A DNA stretch of 64,000 bases from Bacteroidetes bacterium GWF2_40_14 (lineage in GTDB: Bacteria > Bacteroidota > Bacteroidia > Bacteroidales > UBA932), in the NCBI GenBank assembly GCA_001769195.1, contig MEOK01000004.1:248001-312000 (forward strand). Direction: 5' to 3'. The position numbers and the translations under genes are program-made. The notes below the pieces were generated by a model, which worked only from the letters and a program-made list of their open reading frames with translations, was not told the origin of the DNA and searched no databases. Shown here piece by piece: positions 6,166 to 48,860 of this stretch. The first letter of the stretch is position 1. The number at the start of each line of letters is the position of its first letter.

Positions 6166-8760
6166 ATGAGAAAGGAAATAAAAAAAATCACATATTGGGT
6201 AATACTCTTATTGTCCATTCATACACCATTTTCTGCTAAGGCATCTGTTGATACCGTTAAAACTAATAAATATGAAAAATGGGAGTTTGAAAGTGGGACA
6301 TCATATTCATACCATCTTGGAGCAGCCGATATAATATACGATTACGAGAAAGGTTTGCTTAAAGATAAAAGGATTATTAGCGATATTCAAAAATATTACA
6401 AACTGGAGATTGTAAAAGAGTCATACCCAGACGCAAACTCACGTGGCAATAATTTCAGATATATTTATATAAGCAACAACAACAAGGTTGTATTGTCGGA
6501 ATATAATGAGCTAAACGAAGAACAACTGAAAAAATGCAAAAATTATATTTTAACATCAACACATCCTCCAAGATATAATCTCCCCAATGGTAATCTGGGT
6601 ACTGAACTATTTTATCCGGAAGATGCTCCAAAATTTCAACCGGGTTATAAGAATTTTGATTTTGAAAATAGAGTGAACACCGGATTGTTATATATCGAAG
6701 GGGCATGTCTTTTCTTCGATCCTGCCAGTGGGTATCTTATACATTGGCGCTTTTCTCCAGGTGAAATGCAGGAGGCATTTATCCGATATGCAAAATACAA
6801 GAATTGTGACAGGATTATTTCTTCAGAAACTCAAAAAAAGGAATATGCAATTAAGGCGTCAGCATCCCCAGGGGAGGTAAAGCTGGATGGATCGTCAACT
6901 GTAGAAGTAATAGCTACTTTGTATGAGTATTCCGAAGGTTCCGATAAGGCATCAATACCGTTGGTGGGAAAAATGGTGGATTTTTTAATAAATGAGCAAA
7001 ATGGCATAACTCCCGGAAAATTATCCGCATCATCGGCAATTACAAATACAAACGGCCAGGCATCTGTTGTATTTACCGCTCCCGACTCAGAGCTTCTTGG
7101 TAAAGCAACCCTTCTTGTAAATACAGCAACAGTTACAGCAAAAAGTAAGGATTATAGTTGTGAGGATATGGCATATATCCGTTTTATAGCTAATAAAGGA
7201 AAGGTAACCGTGGAGCCCTCAACAGGAGGAATTACCTCCTCCAGAGGCATAGTTCCACCGGACAAGCGGTTCCCTGCCCTTATCAGAGCATATATAGAGG
7301 ATGAAAATCTTAACCCTAAAACCAATTCAGAGGTAATATTCACTATAACCGGAGATAAAAATTACGGATTACTAAGGGGAGAGGATGGCAAAGAGAGCAA
7401 AAAAATTGTTTGCAAGACTGATGCAAGCGGAATTGCGGAGGTACAATATATATTTACAGACAAGAACATACCTGAAAAGCCAGTGAGTGACAGAATCGAA
7501 GTAAATTCGAAAGGGCTGGCCATGGCTTTGAATGCAGAAATTTCAATCGGTCTTAACATTGTTTTTGATTCAGTAGAGAATGGCTATGAAGGCAAGGGTG
7601 TGATAAATGCAGGTGAGGAGATACCATTGCGTGTTAAGATAAAGGATGCCTGGAACCCGGAGCTAGATCTGAACGAAGTTCTGAACTACTGGGGATTCGG
7701 CAACAAAACAGGCAATGATATGACATTTGTAAGACTAGAAGTGGAAAAGCTGGGTTCCGTGCCTGACTATCTACTCGACCACCTTCAGATTACCAAATAC
7801 CCCGAACAGCCATTTGCAGAGATAATGAATGTTAAGAGCTTTAAAGACAAGGGAGAACTTAATATGCTCTGGATGCCGGAATCGACTCTCAAAACCTATC
7901 GGGGGTATCCCAGGATATGTCCAAAGGCAGCCGGTACAAGTTATTATGAAGCAAGAGTATTTTTGACAGATAATCAGGGGAAAGTTATTTTTCCGGTTAA
8001 CCACCCTGCTTCAAAATCCTTCTTAACGGTCAATACCGGAGTAGATGCAGACAAATTTAAAATTTTCATAAATCTGAACCCATTCGGACCACATTCAAAG
8101 TATACCCAAGTATTAAGGGAGGCACTTGCATACAAATACGGTACAGTTATCTCAATTGTTGATGCCCTGGATGCCATAAACAGGGGAGATGTGGAAGGTC
8201 TTTACGGGTTGTTGTTTGGAGAGATCAAAGGAGCTATCCTCGACAAAGTAAAAAGTAAATCAGCCTTTAATGAAGAGATTGTTGAGGCCTATTCCAAAAT
8301 AGCATTGGCAGAGAAGATACACTTTGATATTCTTCGAGACAGATCGGGGTATCTTGCCCAACTGGATGCCGCGGTTTTCAAACAGTTAACAAATGTTTTC
8401 AATGCCAATCCATGTCAGATTATTATTCTGACGGGGGTAGGAACACAGAAACTTTTTGAAGATCTTAAGGCAAGTCAGCCGGAAGATTCAAAGAGTGATG
8501 AAACAAAAGAAACAGCAACAATTAAAGACAAATTTAAGGTTGCAGCAGAAGTTACGGGCAAAGTAGCATCTAATACTATTAAACAGATTGGTAACGTAAT
8601 ACGTGGTTCCGGCAGGGAAATTCCTGTAAAAGAGGGGACTTTTGTCAATGACGACAAAAGAAAAACAGTCTCCTTCAAAAATGGAGCAACAACAATATAC
8701 CTAATACCTACAGGCATGAATGTCAGATACGAGAATGCTTTCGAAATTAAGAAGTACTAA
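6166..8760 (+). CDS. Large secreted protein with bacterial Ig-like domains
   Basis: An 864-aa protein from ATG 6166, chosen because a signal peptide (MRKEIKKITYWVILLLSIHT) starts there. Longer in-frame starts would run inside the FISUMP gene. Residues about 30-215 hold an unassigned N-terminal domain. About 220-315 ('ASPGEVKLDGSSTVEVIATL', 'TNTNGQASVVFTAP') and about 320-440 ('TDASGIAEVQYIFT') read as two Big_1-like Ig folds of the invasin/intimin type. The C-terminal 400 residues are unassigned and contain a charged Lys/Glu-rich stretch near 760-800. No sortase, PorSS-type CTD or lipobox was seen. It is probably extracytoplasmic. Its TAA overlaps the stop of the convergent gene by 4 bp. Confidence 0.65.
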   Translation: MRKEIKKITYWVILLLSIHTPFSAKASVDTVKTNKYEKWEFESGTSYSYHLGAADIIYDYEKGLLKDKRIISDIQKYYKLEIVKESYPDANSRGNNFRYIYISNNNKVVLSEYNELNEEQLKKCKNYILTSTHPPRYNLPNGNLGTELFYPEDAPKFQPGYKNFDFENRVNTGLLYIEGACLFFDPASGYLIHWRFSPGEMQEAFIRYAKYKNCDRIISSETQKKEYAIKASASPGEVKLDGSSTVEVIATLYEYSEGSDKASIPLVGKMVDFLINEQNGITPGKLSASSAITNTNGQASVVFTAPDSELLGKATLLVNTATVTAKSKDYSCEDMAYIRFIANKGKVTVEPSTGGITSSRGIVPPDKRFPALIRAYIEDENLNPKTNSEVIFTITGDKNYGLLRGEDGKESKKIVCKTDASGIAEVQYIFTDKNIPEKPVSDRIEVNSKGLAMALNAEISIGLNIVFDSVENGYEGKGVINAGEEIPLRVKIKDAWNPELDLNEVLNYWGFGNKTGNDMTFVRLEVEKLGSVPDYLLDHLQITKYPEQPFAEIMNVKSFKDKGELNMLWMPESTLKTYRGYPRICPKAAGTSYYEARVFLTDNQGKVIFPVNHPASKSFLTVNTGVDADKFKIFINLNPFGPHSKYTQVLREALAYKYGTVISIVDALDAINRGDVEGLYGLLFGEIKGAILDKVKSKSAFNEEIVEAYSKIALAEKIHFDILRDRSGYLAQLDAAVFKQLTNVFNANPCQIIILTGVGTQKLFEDLKASQPEDSKSDETKETATIKDKFKVAAEVTGKVASNTIKQIGNVIRGSGREIPVKEGTFVNDDKRKTVSFKNGATTIYLIPTGMNVRYENAFEIKKY

Positions 8761-9125
8761 TCATTTTTAAACGATTCACTCCACTTGATGACAGCAGCTT
8801 TCTGCTCATCAGACAAAACAACCTCCGGATGTGATTTTATGAATGATTTAGGAGGCATTGTTCCCTTTAAAACGACAGTGCCAATTGAGGAAGCTTTTTT
8901 TGCTTGCTTTTCCTGAGAGTAAGTATCCCACTTTGAAAAATTAAGTTTTGCCTTGGCCATTCCTCCACCATTATCCGAATGACAGGCCATGCAGGAATTT
9001 TTGAAAATTACTTTCAAATCATCCGGAATAGGATTGGGTTTTGATGTTTGTGCATTTAAAAGCAATGAGCCGGAGACAAATACCAAAGTAAATGCCGATA
9101 TAAGAAACAGATAATTTTTTTTCAT
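8757..9125 (-). CDS. Small secreted haem-binding (cytochrome c-like) protein
   Basis: A 122-aa protein starting MKKNYLFLISAF, with a signal peptide of about 26 residues. One c-type haem motif CMACH lies at residues 45-49, preceded by 'LKVIFKNS'. A later Met-Pro-Pro (GTMPPKSF) could supply the distal ligand, and the end reads 'LSDEQKAAVIKWSES'. This is the pattern of the Bacteroidota haem-binding domain family (Haem_bd, PF14376-like). It would act in the periplasm, in electron transfer or haem sensing. I start it at 9125, not four codons upstream, because the signal begins there. It follows the Cas12f-like gene by 48 nt in the same direction and may share its transcript. Confidence 0.8.
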   Translation of the reverse strand: MKKNYLFLISAFTLVFVSGSLLLNAQTSKPNPIPDDLKVIFKNSCMACHSDNGGGMAKAKLNFSKWDTYSQEKQAKKASSIGTVVLKGTMPPKSFIKSHPEVVLSDEQKAAVIKWSESFKND

Positions 9126-9131
9126 AACACA

Positions 9132-9156
9132 ACTCAATTTAAAAGTATAATTGAGT
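9132..9156. repeat. Short stem-loop between the Cas12f-like and cytochrome genes
   Basis: ACTCAATT (9132-9139) and AATTGAGT (9149-9156) form an 8-bp stem with a 9-nt loop. There is no T-run after it on either strand, so it is not a convincing terminator. It lies just upstream of the cytochrome start. Confidence 0.4.
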
Positions 9157-9173
9157 CTAAATATAAGAAAAAA

Positions 9174-10265
9174 TCAGGATTCAACATCTATCACACTTAT
9201 GTCTATTCCATTCAATCGGGCTTTATAGTCGAGTTTCTGCCTGATACCGCAATATGACCAGCTTTTTAGCAGCAGAGGAACTTTCTTCCTGTTTCTCTCC
9301 TTGTCTATAAAGTTTATAAGGTTTATTGTTCCACATCTGTTCTCTATTGCATAATCGACCAGTAATTTTGTATAGGTATGAATTTTGGTGTTTAGATAAT
9401 CCTTCTCTTTTTCAAGCAACTTCCCCAATGCCTGATTTTTTCGTTTGCGTCCTTTTCCTTCAGCAGAATACCTTGAATTTATTTTTGCTCTTTTTATACC
9501 AACTTGTATCTGCAACAGGCGGTGCATGAACTCCTCCTTGTTCCCTATCTCTTTCTCGAAACCGTTGAACCCGGCAATAATAGGTACTTCAGCAGATAGA
9601 ACGGCATTCACATACCTGTTTTTATCCAGTTCCTTTTTATTGACAGATATGTCTATATCAATATGAAGAAAAAGCTTCTTTTTTGTATCATCAATATTAA
9701 GACAGAGATTGGAAATACGTAGCTGACCGGTAACAATATCTTCAAAAACCTTTTTATTATTGCTTTTGTCCCTGCCGAGTACAATTTTGAATGGTATACC
9801 AAAAAGAGTGAACAGAAAGCAATTTCTGACTCCATTCCAATGCAGGTTCTTAACAGATTGAACACTAAACGGAATAGGGATATTATTCCTGTAAGTATAA
9901 AGACTTGCATTGCCTTTTAACAAAGCATTTCTGGTTTCTTTATATTTTTTTGTTACCTCATGATGAAGGCAATTTGCCACATTCAGAGGTATCTTACCCT
10001 TTAATTTTTCCAATAAAAGAACCGATGATGCAGTTGACTCCATCATCGGTTCACCTTGTACGCTAATTATGCCCAGCTCTTTTTTCTGGTCATCGTTTAA
10101 AAATTTGTTATACTGTAGTCTGTCTATACTGTATAGGAATGAAAGAAGTTCATTGGCACTGTTTCTTGCCTGAAATCTCCATTCAGAAATCTGTCGCTGA
10201 AACGATCTTTTAAGCTCATTATCCTGTTCATCAACTACTATTTCGATTTTCCTTGTAATAAGCAT
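9174..10265 (-). CDS. Nuclease-dead Cas12f/TnpB-like protein
   Basis: A 363-aa protein that lines up by eye with Cas12f (Cas14-type) effectors. The N-terminus MLITRKIEIVV and the helical segment up to about 125 fit. The 'NNIPIPF' element (127-133) and 'LFGIPFKIVLGRDKSNN' (154-170) match the Cas12f wedge region. A basic linker 'KGRKRKNQ' is at 271-278, followed by 'LVDYAIENRCGTI' and 'RQKLDYKARLNGIDISVID' (342-360). The RuvC-I Asp (expected in AVLSAEV, 221-227) and RuvC-II Glu (expected in INLINF, 314-319) are replaced by non-acidic residues. The chain stops where the zinc ribbon and RuvC-III Asp should follow. There is no room downstream for a split remainder. DNA cleavage is therefore unlikely, but RNA-guided binding could persist, as known for dead TnpB-like repressors (TldR) and dead Cas12f homologues in Bacteroidota. 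It has its own promoter and leader and lies downstream of a SusCD operon. Confidence 0.82.
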   Translation of the reverse strand: MLITRKIEIVVDEQDNELKRSFQRQISEWRFQARNSANELLSFLYSIDRLQYNKFLNDDQKKELGIISVQGEPMMESTASSVLLLEKLKGKIPLNVANCLHHEVTKKYKETRNALLKGNASLYTYRNNIPIPFSVQSVKNLHWNGVRNCFLFTLFGIPFKIVLGRDKSNNKKVFEDIVTGQLRISNLCLNIDDTKKKLFLHIDIDISVNKKELDKNRYVNAVLSAEVPIIAGFNGFEKEIGNKEEFMHRLLQIQVGIKRAKINSRYSAEGKGRKRKNQALGKLLEKEKDYLNTKIHTYTKLLVDYAIENRCGTINLINFIDKERNRKKVPLLLKSWSYCGIRQKLDYKARLNGIDISVIDVES

Positions 10266-10428
10266 AGTCCGATTAATTCTGTATTAGTATCAAACCTAAA
10301 TTACTAACCACTGTACCTGCTGTCAAACAGCAGTTTGTGAGTGTCTTGGAGCCTCACAATAAGGGTTTACAGCTGCCCCGTTGTTTTATGATGTATAAAT
10401 ACACTAGTAGACATGACAATGTTTGACA
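10266..10428 (-). ncRNA. Structured leader of the Cas12f-like gene; candidate guide or control RNA
   Basis: Non-coding stretch between a consensus promoter and the Cas12f-like ATG. It contains hairpin TTGTGAG/CTCACAA (10335-10359, 11-nt loop) and hairpin CTGCTG-TTTGA-CAGCAG (10317-10333 on the minus strand). Its first nucleotides, TGTCAAAC (10421-10428), can pair with GTTTGACA (10321-10328), which covers the loop of the second hairpin. That allows either a pseudoknot or a switch between two folds. Guide RNAs of Cas12f and TnpB are structured and often contain pseudoknots. A regulatory 5' UTR is equally possible. I could not assign a guide segment or a target. Confidence 0.4.
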
Positions 10429-10431
10429 CAG

Positions 10432-10462
10432 CAAATATATATACAAAAATCATTCCAACAAA
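10432..10462 (-). promoter_or_regulatory. Bacteroidota-type promoter for the Cas12f-like gene
   Basis: On the minus strand TTTG (10459-10462), exactly 19 nt, then TATATTTG (10432-10439). This is a full match to the phylum consensus TTTG-N19-21-TAnnTTTG. Initiation is expected near 10426-10428, giving a leader of about 160 nt. Confidence 0.7.
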
Positions 10463-10496
10463 TTTTTTTTGAGAGCTCTTAATAAGTATTTTGTAT

Positions 10497-10535
10497 TAAA
10501 AGGGCTCTCTTGCTTAAAAACTGTAAGAAAGCCCT
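10497..10535 (-). terminator. Terminator of the SusCD/DUF1735-like operon, with an alternative pairing
   Basis: On the minus strand AGGGCTTTCTT pairs with AAGAGAGCCCT (10525-10535 with 10501-10511, one G-U), followed by TTTAATA. The same GAGAGCCC arm can instead pair with the next segment at 10471-10484 (GAGAGCTCTTAATA on the plus strand). Three arms therefore form two exclusive hairpins ahead of the Cas12f-like promoter. Confidence 0.6.
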
Positions 10536-10561
10536 CATTTGTGATGTACTTGGCTGTTTTA

Positions 10562-11320
10562 TTATGGCAAATCCAATACCTCGGAGGCAACGCCGAACGA
10601 GCCCGCAGTTACCCTGAAGTCAACGATAAATGTGATTTTTTTGCCAACAATCGTACTCTCGGCCATATGTCCGATATCCCATGAGGTCATACCGTAAGTT
10701 GAGTGTCTGTAACCCATTGCCTGTTTTGCAAAAGTAACCTTACCATTTGCTATTGCGAACTCTATTGGATAACCGGCATAATAGCAATCGGGAAGTCGGT
10801 AATAATCGGCTTCAATTGCTTTCTGTACAACCTGTGGCCACGAATCTTCAAAGAATTCAGAGGTAAACAGACCTGTTCCTATTGTCTGGAAGGTAAGTTT
10901 CCGCTGAGCAGTAATCTTAATGGTTTTGTAACCACCATAGGATACCTGTTCATTATTTGTAATTGCTACAGTAATGAGATATTTTTCACCACCAAAATTG
11001 TTGATGCTCGGATAGGTGAATTTCAGATATGCCTTACTCTCACCATCTGCAAAATCGAATTGTGATTTCTGAGGGGTGAATACACCACCAGTAGAATTGG
11101 TAATTGTAACAGGAACCGAAACGGCTCCTTTAGTATTGCCCCTCCACATCTCTAACTGTATTTGATTGCCATCTGCGTTAACCATGGCAAAATTAATTAG
11201 TGTAGAAGGAAACGTCGCCTCCACTCTGGTACCGGGATCATAGATTACTCGCTCCGGTTCACAAGCAGATGTTATGCAGAGGAGACCAATAATACTTGCA
11301 AGAAATAATATCTTTTTCAT
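10562..11320 (-). CDS. SusE-position surface lipoprotein, DUF1735-like
   Basis: A 252-aa SPII lipoprotein (lipobox CITSAC, Cys20). The N-terminal part (about 30-135) resembles the BT_3987/DUF1735 Ig-like domain: 'NADGNQIQLEMWRGNTKGAVSVPVTI', 'FDFADGESKAYLKFTYP', 'YLITVAI'. A second part, residues 140-252, has a pattern seen in SusE-position proteins ('FTSEFFEDSWPQVVQKAIEADYYRLPDCYYAGYPIEF'). It is the third gene of a SusC-SusD operon (30 nt after SusD) and probably binds glycan or peptide at the cell surface beside the SusCD complex. A terminator follows. Confidence 0.75.
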   Translation of the reverse strand: MKKILFLASIIGLLCITSACEPERVIYDPGTRVEATFPSTLINFAMVNADGNQIQLEMWRGNTKGAVSVPVTITNSTGGVFTPQKSQFDFADGESKAYLKFTYPSINNFGGEKYLITVAITNNEQVSYGGYKTIKITAQRKLTFQTIGTGLFTSEFFEDSWPQVVQKAIEADYYRLPDCYYAGYPIEFAIANGKVTFAKQAMGYRHSTYGMTSWDIGHMAESTIVGKKITFIVDFRVTAGSFGVASEVLDLP

Positions 11321-11350
11321 ATATGTTTTTGATCTTTTAATGTTAATAGA

Positions 11351-12913
11351 TTATCCCTGTTGACTTGGATTCTGGTCGGTAGTAGCATCCATGTTTTCAT
11401 TACCGTCAAATTCAGACTGAGGTATCCATAGGATAAATGCAGGTGAGGCAGCATTTGTGTTTATCGTAGGAATAAGTTTAGTGTGATTCGAGCCATCGAA
11501 GTTTCTGCGGAAACCTAATCCTAATCTTTGCAGGTCGTGCAATCTTGGAATTTCACTCCAAAGTTCGATTCTTCGTTGAAACAGAATCTCATCCATTAGT
11601 GTAGTAAGGGTACCTGTAGTAGAGCTGTTAAAGGTCTTGCTGTCTGTAAAACCTGAAAGGCGAGTGGCATAATTAGAGTCTCTATTGCCTCCAACCATTG
11701 TTACATATTGTCTTGCTTCGCTGTATTTCTGCAAATGGCATGCGGCCTCTGCAGCTATGAGCATCATCTCCTCAACTCTCATAATAATGTGATCTCCTGT
11801 CTGTGCACTGACGTTCTTGTAAACAAGTTTTGTCTGGCACCAAGAACGTCTGGACCCGGTTGCAGTACCTGCACCTCCCCACTGGTCGCTGCTGAGCGGT
11901 GCTGTCCACCATCCCTTGCGTTGGTCAGTAGCTGGAATCTGGTTGTACAGCCATGAAGAGATAAGATGTCTTGCTTTGGAATAGGTACTCAGATTGTCAG
12001 CATCCATGTGATTGTATATGTCATAATTTCCCATAGCCTGATCTGTCTGGATAATTAAAGCCCACATTACATCTTTAGCAGCGGCTTCGTTAACATTCCT
12101 AATCTCAGAAAATGACGCAATAGCAGCAGAAGATTCCAAAGCCTTTTTTGCGAAGGTTAAAGCAGTGTTGTAATCTTTTTGCACAAGAGCGTGACGAGCT
12201 TTGATGCCATAAGCGACATACTTGTCTATGTGTGATTTATGCATTTGAGTTTTAGAACTGCCTTCAAGAAGGGTAATAGCTTTATCAATATCGCTATTGG
12301 CTTGGGTATAAACTTGCTGAACGGTTCCTCTAGGGTTTCCTACCGATCCGGCAACAGTTGGTTCTGTGTAAATTGGAACCCCCGGTTTGGTTGGGTTATT
12401 TTGCTGGAAGCATTGAACCAACCACATATAGCTATACGATCTTATAGCATAAGCCTGACCTACCACATAATTGGCAATAGCCTGGTCACCCGGAATTTTA
12501 CCTTCCTGAGCAATAATGTAATTTGCATTTTTTATGAGTGAATAGAAGAAATTCCAGATTTGATACTGGTGACCGGCAGAACCTGAATAATCGCCCCAGG
12601 TGTCAAATGCGTAATCGTACCAGAACCATCCGGAACCAGAAGCATCCATAGGATGATCTTCTCCCATAATATCAAAAACCAGAATATAAGCAGGTAAACC
12701 CCCGTTTTCTGCACCCCATGCTGTCCTTGGGTCTCCCCAGCCACCGGTATACATAAGTCTGTAAATGCCGTTTATTGCAGCAAGCGAATTCTGAGCATCC
12801 GAAAATATTGCAGTTCCCGATACCCGATTAGTAGGGTCGGTGTTCAACATATCGGAACAACCGTTAAAAGAGAGAATCCCTACAAGTGATAATAAATATA
12901 ATATCTTTTTCAT
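11351..12913 (-). CDS. SusD/RagB-family nutrient-binding lipoprotein (first locus)
   Basis: A 520-aa lipoprotein with Cys19 in LSFNGCSD. It follows the SusD/RagB plan: 'DMLNTDPTNRVSGTAIFSDAQNSLAAINGIYRLMY' at the N-terminus, TPR-like helices in the middle, 'RVEEMMLIAAEAACHLQKYSEARQYV' and the C-terminal 'FQRRIELWSEIPRLHDLQRLG'. SusD proteins form the lid on the SusC barrel and deliver ligand to it. The gene starts 18 nt after SusC and is followed by the DUF1735-like lipoprotein. The substrate cannot be told from sequence, and no glycoside hydrolase or protease gene is in the operon itself. Confidence 0.93.
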   Translation of the reverse strand: MKKILYLLSLVGILSFNGCSDMLNTDPTNRVSGTAIFSDAQNSLAAINGIYRLMYTGGWGDPRTAWGAENGGLPAYILVFDIMGEDHPMDASGSGWFWYDYAFDTWGDYSGSAGHQYQIWNFFYSLIKNANYIIAQEGKIPGDQAIANYVVGQAYAIRSYSYMWLVQCFQQNNPTKPGVPIYTEPTVAGSVGNPRGTVQQVYTQANSDIDKAITLLEGSSKTQMHKSHIDKYVAYGIKARHALVQKDYNTALTFAKKALESSAAIASFSEIRNVNEAAAKDVMWALIIQTDQAMGNYDIYNHMDADNLSTYSKARHLISSWLYNQIPATDQRKGWWTAPLSSDQWGGAGTATGSRRSWCQTKLVYKNVSAQTGDHIIMRVEEMMLIAAEAACHLQKYSEARQYVTMVGGNRDSNYATRLSGFTDSKTFNSSTTGTLTTLMDEILFQRRIELWSEIPRLHDLQRLGLGFRRNFDGSNHTKLIPTINTNAASPAFILWIPQSEFDGNENMDATTDQNPSQQG

Positions 12914-12931: not shown

Positions 12932-15900
12932 TTATAAGTTAAGATTTAATCCAACAGAAATTGTCCTGGCAGGGGTATAAGAAAACCCTGTTCCGCCTGT
13001 AAAATTATATTGAGGATCCATACCTTTGAGCGCTGTAAACACATAAAGGTTATCTGCTGTCAGAGTAATTCTTGCCCCCTGGAACTTCATTAACTTCATC
13101 CATCTTGAAGGAAGGGAGTATCCCAATGTAATATTCTTGATTGCAAAGTATGATGCATCAATCAGGTCATCTGCTGTATTTGTGATTTTTGCAGAGCCAT
13201 TGCTGTCGATTCTAGGAATTGATACAATATCTCCGGGCTTTTTCCATGCACTTTCTCTGTCGACATGTGCCGCCTGACCCACATAAGTATTATATAAAAG
13301 AGTACTGTAAACTCCATCAAGCATCTTTCCTCCAATTGAAAATGTAGTAAGGAAACTCAAATCGAAGTTGCCGACTCTCAAATCATTCACCCAAGATCCA
13401 AAAACCTTAGGAATACGACTTCCTGCGATATCTCTGCATTGAAGTGCCTTTGAATAGTCACTGCTGATATATCGTTCCCCGCGTACACCTTCATCGTCTT
13501 CATCCCATACCCAGTATAATTTATTTCCGGTTGCAGGGTCTATCCCAGCCGAGTGTGCCAAATAAAAGGAATTAATTGTTTCACCCTCTCTTTTAATATA
13601 GTTCCCGGAAATTATCTCAGGCTTGTCTGCAAGGTTCTTGACTTTATTCTTTACGGTGGAGCCCATTAAGGTCATGTTCCAGTTGAGCTTTCCCTTTTTA
13701 ATGATATCAATGGAGAGTGTTACCTCAAAACCGCTGTTCTGCATGTTCCCGATGTTCTTTGAATAATCTTTGAAGCCAAGTGAGAGTGCCATAGGATAGT
13801 CCATAAGCATATCTCTTGTAAAACGGTTGTAATATTCGGCAGAGAAAGAAATTTTATCTAACAAACGGGCTTCGATACCCACGTTCAGATTTTCATTTTT
13901 CTCCCATTTAAGATTTGCATTTTCAAGAGAGGTTACAACAGCTCCTGGATTGGAACCATTTGGATATGCTAGTGAATAGAAAGCCTGCCATGCGTATAGA
14001 GAGCCTATATTATCATTACCTTGAACACCATAAGAGGCTTTAAGAGTAAGATTGTTTAGCCATGAAAGGCCTTTCATAAATGGTTCCTGTGAAATCCTCC
14101 AGCTTCCTCCAATTGACCCAAAGTCTCCCCAACGCACATCTTTGTTGAAACGAGAAGTCCCATCTCTACGGTAACTACCGGATAGATAAAATTTATCGTT
14201 AAAGTTATAATTCAACCGAGACAAATACGATTCAATAACATAATTGTTTGTATAAGAACTGGCATCTTGAATAGTTGTAGCAGCATCTAATTCATAAAGT
14301 CCGCCAAAAGGAAATCCGGATTTATCGCCTCTCAAATATTGATAGTTATATTTGTACAGCTCGTGACCGGCCATGAAATCAATATTATGTCTTCCAAAGG
14401 AACGGTTCCATGAAAGAATCTGATTGAATGTATAACTTAATGTCCTTTCATCCTTTATTGAAACGAAGCCATTAAGAGATTTTGAATTACCATAGTAAGG
14501 ATTCCAGTATGTTCTGGTTTTCCCCAGATTGTAGTCGAACCCGAAATTTACAGAAAATTTAAGACCTTGTAGGAACCCTTCTTTAAGCCCGCCTAAATCG
14601 AAATATGTCCTTGCACTGACGTTATCGTTAGTTCCGGTATACTTGTCGTCTTTGAGGTTGGCTAAAGGGTTCCACCCCGCACTGGCACCTGCCGGACGGT
14701 CCTCACCCCAGTCGTATTTTAAGTCTCCGTTAACATCCAATACGTTTTTGCCTTCTGCATCTTTTTCGTATAATGGATATATAGGAGCCATCAACATACA
14801 GGTATAAAATACATTGGAATACGAAGAACTGCTCTCCGATGTTGTCACCAATGATAATGATGTGCTGTTTGATGAGTTGGCAGCAAAGTTTACATTAAAA
14901 CCGGTTTTGAACCACTCTTTGACTTTGGAATCAATATTTGCTCGTCCCGAATAGCGATTAAAGTTTGTAGATAGTACAAGACCCTCCTCTTTCAGATAGC
15001 CTGCAGAGAACATATAATTGGTTCTGGCAGAGCCACCACTTACTGTCATCTGGTATTCCTGGCGCAGAGGCTGAGGTTCTGTGGCACTATCGAGCCAGTC
15101 TTCGTTCCACTTAAGAGTAGTGCCATCTTTAATCTTACCTGTTGTATGGTCTATAAGGTCGGTTACTGCAAGGCTGAAAGGATTGTATTTCTGATTTGCA
15201 CCAAAAATTTTTGTAGCACCGGTGGCCATCTCCTGAAGTGCGGCAGCTCCTGCCAGTGAAGGAGGAGTCCCGTCGGCAATAAGTTTGTTCTTGTACATAA
15301 AATAGACATCTTCGGTCCAGCCGTATGAATCCAAGGTATTATAACGTGGAATTCCTCTGGATGCTATACCCCAATTGCCTTTGAAGCTGATCGTAACATC
15401 ACCCTCCTTACCCTTTTTGGTTGTAATCATAATGACACCATTTGCACCGCGCGCCCCATAAAGGGCACCAGCCGATGCATCTTTGATAATTGTCATTGAT
15501 TCAATATCATTAGGATTAATGGCATTGATTGCTCCGTCATAAGGAACTCCGTCAACTACATACAATGGTTTGTTAGATGCACTGATTGAGCCGAAACCTC
15601 GGATAACCACAGAGGCTCCTTCGCCGGGTTGACCCGATCCAGATGTAGTTTGAACACCGGTGGCTAAGCCATCCAGTGCCTTGGTTACATTGGAGATTGT
15701 TCTTTTTTCAATTTTATCTGCTTTCACTACCTGAGCAGATCCGGTAAATGATTCTTTTTTTGCTGTACCATAAGCTACAACAATAACATCTTCCAAAGCT
15801 ACTGCTTCGGAGGAGAGTTGAACGTTCACAATAGTCCGGCCGTTTATTTCGGCAACAACTGTCTTCTTGCCAATAAATGTAAAGGTAAGAGACTTGCCTG

Positions 15901-16096
15901 TAGCGGGGACATTAATAGAATAAGTACCATCGGCATTGGTTTGCGTCGCAATAGTCATACCTGTCACAACCACTGTCACAAATGGCAGAGGGTCGCCGTC
16001 CTCGGTTGATATAACCGTTCCGGTAACTTTTTGCTGTGCATAAAGCACCGAAATGCCCATGATGACCGACAATGTCAACAAAAGGAGTTTTTTCAT
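12932..16096 (-). CDS. SusC/RagA-family TonB-linked outer-membrane transporter (first locus)
   Basis: A 1054-aa protein: signal peptide (1-20, LYAQ), then a carboxypeptidase-regulatory-like domain (about 22-100, 'KVTGTVISTEDGDPLPFVTVVV'). Next come a TonB-box-like 'DVIVVAYGTAKKESFTGS', the plug ('VIRGFGSISASNKPLYVVDGVPYDG', 'IESMTIIKDASAGALYGARGANGVIMI') and a 22-strand barrel ending ISVGLNLNL. There is no N-terminal STN domain, so it is not the type that signals to an anti-sigma factor. That fits the absence of ECF/FecR genes here. It leads a SusC-SusD-lipoprotein operon and takes up oligomers with TonB energy. Confidence 0.95.
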   Translation of the reverse strand: MKKLLLLTLSVIMGISVLYAQQKVTGTVISTEDGDPLPFVTVVVTGMTIATQTNADGTYSINVPATGKSLTFTFIGKKTVVAEINGRTIVNVQLSSEAVALEDVIVVAYGTAKKESFTGSAQVVKADKIEKRTISNVTKALDGLATGVQTTSGSGQPGEGASVVIRGFGSISASNKPLYVVDGVPYDGAINAINPNDIESMTIIKDASAGALYGARGANGVIMITTKKGKEGDVTISFKGNWGIASRGIPRYNTLDSYGWTEDVYFMYKNKLIADGTPPSLAGAAALQEMATGATKIFGANQKYNPFSLAVTDLIDHTTGKIKDGTTLKWNEDWLDSATEPQPLRQEYQMTVSGGSARTNYMFSAGYLKEEGLVLSTNFNRYSGRANIDSKVKEWFKTGFNVNFAANSSNSTSLSLVTTSESSSSYSNVFYTCMLMAPIYPLYEKDAEGKNVLDVNGDLKYDWGEDRPAGASAGWNPLANLKDDKYTGTNDNVSARTYFDLGGLKEGFLQGLKFSVNFGFDYNLGKTRTYWNPYYGNSKSLNGFVSIKDERTLSYTFNQILSWNRSFGRHNIDFMAGHELYKYNYQYLRGDKSGFPFGGLYELDAATTIQDASSYTNNYVIESYLSRLNYNFNDKFYLSGSYRRDGTSRFNKDVRWGDFGSIGGSWRISQEPFMKGLSWLNNLTLKASYGVQGNDNIGSLYAWQAFYSLAYPNGSNPGAVVTSLENANLKWEKNENLNVGIEARLLDKISFSAEYYNRFTRDMLMDYPMALSLGFKDYSKNIGNMQNSGFEVTLSIDIIKKGKLNWNMTLMGSTVKNKVKNLADKPEIISGNYIKREGETINSFYLAHSAGIDPATGNKLYWVWDEDDEGVRGERYISSDYSKALQCRDIAGSRIPKVFGSWVNDLRVGNFDLSFLTTFSIGGKMLDGVYSTLLYNTYVGQAAHVDRESAWKKPGDIVSIPRIDSNGSAKITNTADDLIDASYFAIKNITLGYSLPSRWMKLMKFQGARITLTADNLYVFTALKGMDPQYNFTGGTGFSYTPARTISVGLNLNL

Positions 16097-16154
16097 TTGA
16101 TTGTTTTTTAGATTAATAATTTAGATTAATTTGGGTTAAGTGAAATTCTATTAG

Positions 16155-16241: not shown

Positions 16242-16676
16242 CTAATCAAGATTGGAAAAAAGTTTGTTTAAAAAAGATTGGGCCATTTTCATTTCATTGG
16301 CATCGGTTCCTTTTAATGCCTGCTTCATTACAGCATTTCCTGTTTTCTTTAGTATGGGAATCAGCATTTTACCCCTATCGGTGATGTAGACATTGTATTC
16401 CCTTCTGTCTGTTGTGTTTCTGAACCTCTCAATATGAAGGTTCTTTTCCATCAGATCCAGGATTCGGGTTAAATTTGATCTGTCCTTATGTAATTTTTGG
16501 GCTAAATCTGTTTGAGTTGGGCCATCATGTTCTGATAGATATATCAAAACCGACCATTGATCACTGCTAATGTCAAGACCCGACTGCTTTAGCTTTCTGC
16601 TAAGTTCCAGTTTGAATTTCTGGGCAGTCTTATTTATTAAGAATGTAATTGATTCGTCCGGAAGGAACATACTCAT
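16242..16676 (-). CDS. MarR-family transcriptional regulator
   Basis: A 144-aa winged-helix protein. Dimerisation helices at both ends flank the MarR DNA-binding core: 'ISSDQWSVLIYLSEHDGPTQTDLAQKLHKDRSNLTRILDLMEK' (recognition helix about 66-78), then the wing 'RNTTDRREYNVYITDRGKML'. The length is typical. It stands 145 nt upstream of SusC on the same strand with its own promoter. It may control that operon, itself, or the small gene upstream. No ligand can be inferred. Confidence 0.92.
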   Translation of the reverse strand: MSMFLPDESITFLINKTAQKFKLELSRKLKQSGLDISSDQWSVLIYLSEHDGPTQTDLAQKLHKDRSNLTRILDLMEKNLHIERFRNTTDRREYNVYITDRGKMLIPILKKTGNAVMKQALKGTDANEMKMAQSFLNKLFSNLD

Positions 16677-48255: not shown

Positions 48256-48801
48256 TTAATGTCCGTTAAAATAATCCTTCAGGTTTTTCCTAAGTACTCT
48301 CAAGGCCGACATAATCCTGTATTCCACAGTTTTTACCGATACTCCCATAATTTGTGCAATCTCTTCATTCTTTTTGCACCCGTAACGGCTCATTTGAAAG
48401 AACTCTTTTGTCTTTGGTGTCATCTCGGTCAGACTCTTTCTTACAAGAAATTCTATCTCTCTGTAAAGTACTGTGCTCATTGTGCTGCATTCCAGGGCTC
48501 TGGATGCTGTCAGCATCTCTTCTTTCTGGAGATGTGTACTATGTTTGGTCTTTACAATTTCTCTGTTCAGGTAATTTATTGTTTTGTTCTTTGCTACAAA
48601 TAAAAGATATGGAAGGGGTATTCTGCATTCGTCTACCTTTGATAAGTTTTCCCAGAATGTTATATACGTATCCTGGGCAATGTTCTCTGCCACGGACCAG
48701 TCTTTACAGTAACGGTATATGTACAGAACCACACGCTCATAATATAAATTAAAAGCTGAATCAAAAAAATCCTGACCTTGTGATTCTTTAATATTGTTCA
48801 T
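48256..48801 (-). CDS. ECF RNA polymerase sigma factor, Bacteroides expansion type
   Basis: A 181-aa sigma-70 family protein with region 2 ('FDSAFNLYYERVVLYIYRYCKDWSVAENIAQDTYITFWEN', 10-50) and region 4 ('RKSLTEMTPKTKEFFQMSRYGCKKNEEIAQIMGVSVKTVEYRIMSALRVLRKNL'). It has the features of the Bacteroidota FecI-like expansion family. Immediate FecR and STN-SusC neighbours show it drives expression of the second SusCD pair on ligand sensing. It is more than 37 kb from the Cas12f-like gene and has its own anti-sigma partner, so I do not link the two. Confidence 0.95.
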   Translation of the reverse strand: MNNIKESQGQDFFDSAFNLYYERVVLYIYRYCKDWSVAENIAQDTYITFWENLSKVDECRIPLPYLLFVAKNKTINYLNREIVKTKHSTHLQKEEMLTASRALECSTMSTVLYREIEFLVRKSLTEMTPKTKEFFQMSRYGCKKNEEIAQIMGVSVKTVEYRIMSALRVLRKNLKDYFNGH

Positions 48802-48860
48802 TAACTCTTATTATACTAACAATCTCAGCCGGTCAATCCCTAAAGTGGACTTTGTAAAAA

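Follow-up and report, generated by a model that had tools for sequence, protein, structure and literature searches.

Within a stretch of 64,000 nucleotides from Bacteroidetes bacterium GWF2_40_14 (contig MEOK01000004.1), hereafter the window, a gene on the minus strand at 9174..10265 encodes a protein of 363 amino acids which homology, residue checks and a predicted structure identify as a nuclease-dead Cas12f (dCas12f). Just upstream of it, on the same strand, lies a conserved guide RNA, and further upstream the linked genes of a SusD-type lipoprotein (11351..12913, minus strand, domain match) and of a SusC-type TonB-dependent transporter (12932..16096, minus strand, with matches to the Plug and CarbopepD_reg_2 domains). 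The neighborhood is a recurrent one, as dCas12f adjoins a SusCD pair in eight of nine loci, namely the window and seven of the eight other loci found in the genus.

The dcas12f frame runs from 10265 to 9174, starts with ATG and contains no internal stop along its 363 codons. The initial annotation of the window, which was made from the sequence alone, had described an intact frame of 363 amino acids and had taken the product for a Cas12f-like protein without RuvC acids or zinc ribbon. Each of these points has held. In a sequence search residues 4-356 match 9n9c, the solved complex of a nuclease-deactivated Cas12f with its guide RNA, at E 1.1e-49, and active Cas12f proteins are weaker matches than 9n9c. 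An AlphaFold model made from 9 sequences has a predicted local distance difference test (pLDDT) score of 79.4 and a predicted template modelling (pTM) score of only 0.50, and its top Foldseek matches are 9n9c (E 3.5e-27) and 9n9m (E 1.7e-26). The Cas12f landmarks listed in the initial annotation, including NNIPIPF at 127-133, stand at the residues it gave. No Pfam family was matched by the protein, and all TnpB matches in NCBIfam were below threshold, the TnpB model scoring 36.7 bits against a cut-off of 100. When aligned with the active Cas12f 9nzo, the RuvC-I Asp (VDLG) falls on a Val (AVLS) and the RuvC-II Glu (QMERL) on an Ile (NLINF), so that neither of the two testable RuvC positions carries an acid, and the chain stops at the point where the zinc ribbon and RuvC-III would come next. 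The locus is thus not that of a Cas12f nuclease of a CRISPR system, for the RuvC acids are absent and no direct repeat of at least 18 bases occurs within 7800-11600.

The same condition is found throughout the genus, where all nine copies have V, S, H or Q at the RuvC-I position and I or V at the RuvC-II position, without a single acid, and share the truncated C-terminus. Outside the genus, 9n9c is 365 amino acids long, and five relatives that are linked to a sigma factor gene measure 364-366 amino acids and all lack the RuvC-II Glu. Judging from these alignments, dCas12f proteins normally lack the acids and the C-terminus, a condition that the relatives share and that is hence not new. One of the sigma-linked proteins (L084, 9064-10161) retains an Asp at the RuvC-I position.

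Upstream of dcas12f, a guide-RNA scaffold (GGGGCAGCTGT...TACAGT) extends over 10310..10379 on the minus strand, with a stem TGTGAG/CTCACA and a pseudoknot-like pairing GCTGTA/TACAGT. It is kept in all nine genus loci, each of which has, upstream of dcas12f and in sense, the series GGGGCWGCTGT..CCTTAWTGTGRGG..CACTCAYAAAC..CAGY followed by GGTTAGTAATTWAG. The stem TGTGRG/CTCAYA pairs in all nine RNAs, and GCTGT pairs with the 3′ CAGY element of the RNA at the first five positions, likewise in all nine if G-U pairs are counted. A covariance model of the first 47-49 nt (R1) recovers the nine dCas12f loci at E <1e-14. It has no further match below E 0.01 in the 25 genus genomes, of which 17 lack dCas12f; in each genome 150 of about 200-500 first-look candidates were scored. 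Rfam at its gathering threshold found only a tRNA across the window. Since the window RNA folded alone is not more stable than its shuffles (z -0.66), the argument for a guide-RNA structure rests on conservation. Upstream of the RNA, at 10432..10462 on the minus strand, stands a promoter-like TTTG-N19-TATATTTG, which follows the Bacteroidota promoter consensus. This full pattern has four matches in the whole window on both strands, and a relaxed form of it is present at L047 and not at the other seven loci.

The predicted guide, GGTTAGTAATTTAGGTTTGA, would occupy 10290..10309 on the minus strand, its start being placed within 1-2 nt. Four of the five sigma-linked relatives have a similar RNA downstream of the gene (as judged by eye), in which the sequence after TACAACG or its equivalent varies locus by locus, and for this reason the window guide is placed at about 10309 onward. 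In the relative L085 the guide matches, at 16 of 18 positions, a sense-oriented site that precedes the sigma gene by 209 bp, and no other site listed within 20 kb has fewer than 6 mismatches. The guide of L087 gives a weaker match, 14 of 18 positions at a sense site 170 bp upstream of the sigma gene, where other sites reach 13 of 18. The conserved guide RNA and its possible targets are additions to what the initial annotation described.

That annotation had also remarked that no sigma gene is linked to the window dcas12f. This is correct and extends to the whole genus clade, where none of nine dCas12f loci has such a gene, as against all five outside the genus. The latter were found in 395 genomes of the class and each has a sigma-like frame directly upstream. 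Pfam recognizes sigma regions in three of the five partners (L085, L087 and L088), and the other two (L084 and L086) match a sigma profile, A3, which was itself built from three partner sigmas, so that three of the five are contained in the profile that finds them; L084 is a member of it and L086 is not. At the nine genus loci no frame matches the partner-sigma profile below E 0.4. The only clear sigma in the window, an extracytoplasmic function (ECF) sigma at 48259-48807 (or, in another match, 48256-48801), lies ~38 kb from dcas12f and is a weak match to the partner profile (E 2.5e-7). Across 13 whole genomes, the profile finds its own three members at E 1e-121 to 1e-130 and scores E 3.8e-59 and 2.7e-25 in the two sigma-linked genomes that are independent of it, in both of which the sigma frame is split. 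In eight sigma-less genomes the best value among the matches listed is E 4e-18, the matched part being the ordinary ECF core, and none of the matches listed there extends past about position 206 of 261 without crossing a stop. In these two of the five sigma-linked loci (L087, 10345-11203, and L086, 10507-11177) the partner sigma is divided between two overlapping frames, which may be due to sequencing error, decay or a programmed frameshift.

The window genome has a single dCas12f copy. Among 60 related genomes, dCas12f was found in eight (the window genome included), all of its own genus, which amounts to 8 of 25 genus genomes and nine loci, and in the class sample it was found in 6 of 395 genomes, again including the window genome. 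The eight positive genus genomes are 88-97.5% complete. One of them (G001) carries two sigma-less copies, at L043 and L047, with the same guide core. A contig collection yielded no close homologue when searched with the window protein as a single query, and eight loci when searched with the protein alignment, on the same contigs as L040-L047. No dCas12f relative was found in viral contigs, and plasmids gave five records only, all distant transposase- or TnpB-like matches at 23-25% identity. The window protein is 47-52% identical to the other eight genus copies, and the frames of all nine are intact. Of the 36 pairs of copies, 6 have a usable dS, and their omega (dN/dS) is 0.06-0.08; the window copy is in none of these six. 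In an unrooted tree a branch with 100/100 support divides sigma-linked from sigma-less proteins; the addition of one active Cas12f fragment places the two as sister clades, with support of 81/92 on the sigma-less side. The dCas12f found here is therefore a real sigma-less branch, under selection in its measurable members. The proposal in the initial annotation that the protein is maintained by selection for a binding role and is not decaying agrees with the omega values of the homologues, with the retention of the guide RNA in nine of nine loci and with matches of the guide to SusC leaders.

In the window, a predicted target (GATTAATAATTTAG) lies at 16111..16124 on the plus strand, 14 nt upstream of the start of the linked SusC gene, identical to the guide at 12 of 14 positions and antisense to SusC. 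Such sites were counted in the leaders of CarbopepD_reg_2 genes, as antisense matches to a 14-nt core of the guide situated 8-22 nt before the ATG, and compared with 3000 shuffled guides. With up to 3 mismatches in 14, sites were present in 6 of 69 leaders of the window genome (G000; shuffled mean 0.36, no shuffle of 3000 with as many), in 5 of 49 in G016 (mean 0.25, 1 of 3000) and in 3 of 31 in G014 (mean 0.15, 11 of 3000). With up to 2 mismatches the counts were 2, 2 and 3 leaders in G000, G016 and G014, equalled by 7, 3 and 0 of 3000 shuffles, respectively. In sense orientation, no SusC leader of these three genomes is within 3 mismatches of the core. A first run on the leaders of the window genome had given 5 and 6 of 5000 shuffles. 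Of the 14 sites, 12 are situated 13-15 nt before the ATG and the other two at 10 and 20. SusC start codons were picked by a rule specific to this analysis, and the leaders used were 69 of the 72 domain matches in G000 (two were left unfetched and a third lacked an ATG), with two of 51 dropped in G016 and one of 32 in G014. The three tests are not independent of one another, as G016 and G014 have orthologous leaders in common.

A search for TTTTGGTTAGTA, which had been seen upstream of the SusC genes of group A loci, found it in 15 places in eight genomes: four group A sites, seven leaders of a different SusC gene beside glutamate dehydrogenase (assigned by eye) and four others. In all seven relatives concerned, the leader of this SusC beside glutamate dehydrogenase matches the guide of its own genome at 12-14 of 14 positions, and near-exact matches to the guide core occur also in the leaders of two further kinds of SusC. 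The base before GTTAG is G in most sites and A in those of the MKRF/MKKF-type SusC genes, and the RNA itself also has G there; the target-adjacent motif (TAM) of dCas12f-sigma systems is a 5′-G. Upstream of the group A SusC genes there is, in addition, a sense block, GAATTTTGGTTAGTA (4831-5027 in L040, with equivalents in L041, L042 and L045), which has 8 nt in common with the guide. One 28-nt leader, AATTACTAACCAAAATTTAACTAAATGA, recurs unchanged in front of SusC genes that differ between genomes, whether these contain dCas12f or not (L184, L190, L191, L192, L196, L197 and L200). A dependence of the leader sites on dCas12f was considered and rejected, as the same leaders exist without it. Since they also stand before SusC in genomes lacking dCas12f, the sites are not kept for dCas12f, and going by their distribution it is rather the guide that probably copied a general SusC leader.

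Given these matches, SusC genes are plausible targets of the sigma-less dCas12f. The reading that we prefer, and to which we give about half of our confidence, is that dCas12f and its guide form a DNA-binding repressor of SusC-type importers that is RNA-guided and needs no sigma, similar in action to the TnpB-like dead repressors (TldR). The guide RNA would be made just upstream of dcas12f and then bound by the dead Cas12f, a loading suggested by the conserved scaffold and the homology to 9n9c. The complex would anneal at SusC leaders, in most cases 13-15 nt ahead of the start codon and with the guide antisense to the gene, and would there block transcription, because a dead Cas12f that sits on the leader, recruits no sigma and is directed away from the gene would be an obstacle. 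As the leader is common to several SusC genes, a small group of importers would be under the control of a single guide. We infer the DNA binding, the repression and an inducing signal as steps of this scheme.

A number of observations weigh against repression at SusC leaders. The first sites were already in view when the 14-nt core and the leader interval were chosen. The signal linking guide and leader is only positional: genome-wide the guide core shows no excess over a reversed control (34 versus 91 in G000 with up to 2 mismatches), and the leader pattern has 26 matches versus 19 for its control in 25 genomes, 15 of the 26 lying before SusC-type starts (by eye). Of the 17 genus genomes that lack dCas12f, at least 5 have the leader motif before SusC, as against 6 of the 8 that carry dCas12f, and the window genome is outside these six, having no exact leader; its own matches are imperfect, with 12 of 14 positions at best. 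An exchange of guides between lineages makes little difference, the own type being the better one in G000 and G014 and not in G016. The four group A loci carry an 8-nt sense match upstream of the linked SusC for which a repressor has no need. Among the sigma-linked relatives, the guides of L084 and L088 have no target standing out nearby, and the partner-sigma contrast has two independent genomes behind it, not five.

It is possible, if unlikely, that the system works instead by RNA-guided activation with the sigma supplied in trans, dCas12f recruiting an ECF sigma encoded elsewhere. The window genome has 48 sigma region-2 matches from which a partner could come, group A loci have a sense TTTTG-GTTAGTA upstream of the linked SusC, and the known mode of the dCas12f family is sigma-dependent activation. 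However, no sigma of the dedicated-partner type stands out in the eight sigma-less genomes among the matches listed, and the leader sites are directed away from SusC, unlike those of the sigma-linked L085 and L087, which are sense-oriented. It is the orientation of the sites and the missing partner type that make activation in trans the weaker explanation.

Improbable, and yet a serious contender because small RNAs of Bacteroides act on SusC translation starts, the FopS RNAs of Bacteroides thetaiotaomicron repressing SusC translation near the start codon (PMC11697453), is a mechanism in which dCas12f serves as a dedicated RNA chaperone and the guide RNA it holds pairs with the SusC mRNA leader near the start codon, blocking translation. 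The leader sites lie close to the start codon and, being antisense to the gene, are complementary to its mRNA. In a hand count, 14 of 31 mismatches between guide and site put a guide G over a site A, which G-U wobble would tolerate. On the other hand, 9n9m is a complex of dCas12f with guide RNA and DNA. Cas12f-type effectors bind double-stranded DNA, and many sites have a T-rich flank (TTTTG, TTTTA, TTTTAG) at the place of the TAM, although A-rich leaders would give the same. It is rather improbable that the dead Cas12f has left DNA regulation altogether as an Hfq-like RNA-targeting riboregulator, whose antisense guide would silence the translation of several SusC genes through their common leader.

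We consider it decidedly improbable that GGTTAGTAATTWAG is part of the scaffold, with the true guide further downstream and the likeness to SusC leaders a coincidence. That GGTTAGTAATTWAG is common to all nine RNAs, even though the window protein shares only 47-52% identity with the rest, would fit this. However, the corresponding stretch (placed by eye) is locus-specific in four sigma-linked relatives and matches a site upstream of the sigma gene, clearly in L085 and weakly in L087; leader matches exceed those of shuffled guides in all three genomes; and 16-nt windows from the guide core onward revealed no match at a position shared across the nine loci, among the loci fetched. A decaying remnant without function, as the lack of any catalytic residue or linked sigma partner might suggest, is hardly credible in view of the intact frames, the low omega of the measurable homologue pairs and the conserved guide RNA.

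Compared with the dCas12f-sigma systems (PDB 9n9c and 9n9m), which we take to perform sigma-dependent transcription activation, the genus loci have a protein of the same length with similar RuvC substitutions and a Cas12f-type guide RNA. They differ in having no sigma gene, in forming a separate clade, in the guide RNA being upstream of the gene instead of downstream as in four of five sigma-linked loci, and in the guide being antisense to SusC leaders near the start, whereas the sites of L085 and L087 are in sense and far upstream; a short sense-oriented match upstream of SusC exists only in the four group A loci and not in the window. With TldR, as described in PMC13418256, the locus has in common a dead RNA-guided protein, a short guide and a linked homologue, here SusC, of the apparent target genes, and according to the same paper TldR represses with guides as short as 6 nt and tolerates natural mismatches. 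Unlike TldR, the window protein is closest to dCas12f and Cas12f, a descent from TnpB not being supported by its TnpB score, its guide RNA is upstream, and repression is here a prediction; nor was any dCas12f relative found in viral contigs, the flanks not having been screened for phage genes. FopS, which acts with RbpB in Bacteroides (PMC11697453), resembles the guide RNA in that both are small RNAs with complementarity to SusC-type genes around the start of translation; the RNA described here differs by its Cas12f scaffold and its presumed Cas12f protein partner.

As being nuclease-dead was already known of dCas12f, what is new is the context, a sigma-less clade with a conserved guide RNA. 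If repression at SusC leaders is true, dCas12f would be used in at least two ways, as an activator with sigma and as a presumed repressor without it, and a CRISPR-derived protein would control nutrient import in bacterial chromosomes, making it a candidate natural RNA-guided off-switch for nutrient uptake. Because the two clades have similar guide RNAs, they would allow a direct test of how RNA-guided activators and repressors originate from one chassis.

Among the remaining genes around the locus, all on the minus strand, the frame at 10562..11320, between SusD and the guide RNA, belongs to the SusCD cluster as its third gene, resembles a lipoprotein by eye and matches no Pfam family. Downstream of dcas12f, at 8757..9137, a domain match identifies a haem-binding or cytochrome c-like gene, which is probably unrelated. 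A MarR-family regulator, also recognized by a domain match, lies upstream of SusC at 16242..16676, and at L047 the gene after dCas12f is a MarR that is 66% identical to this window MarR beside SusC.
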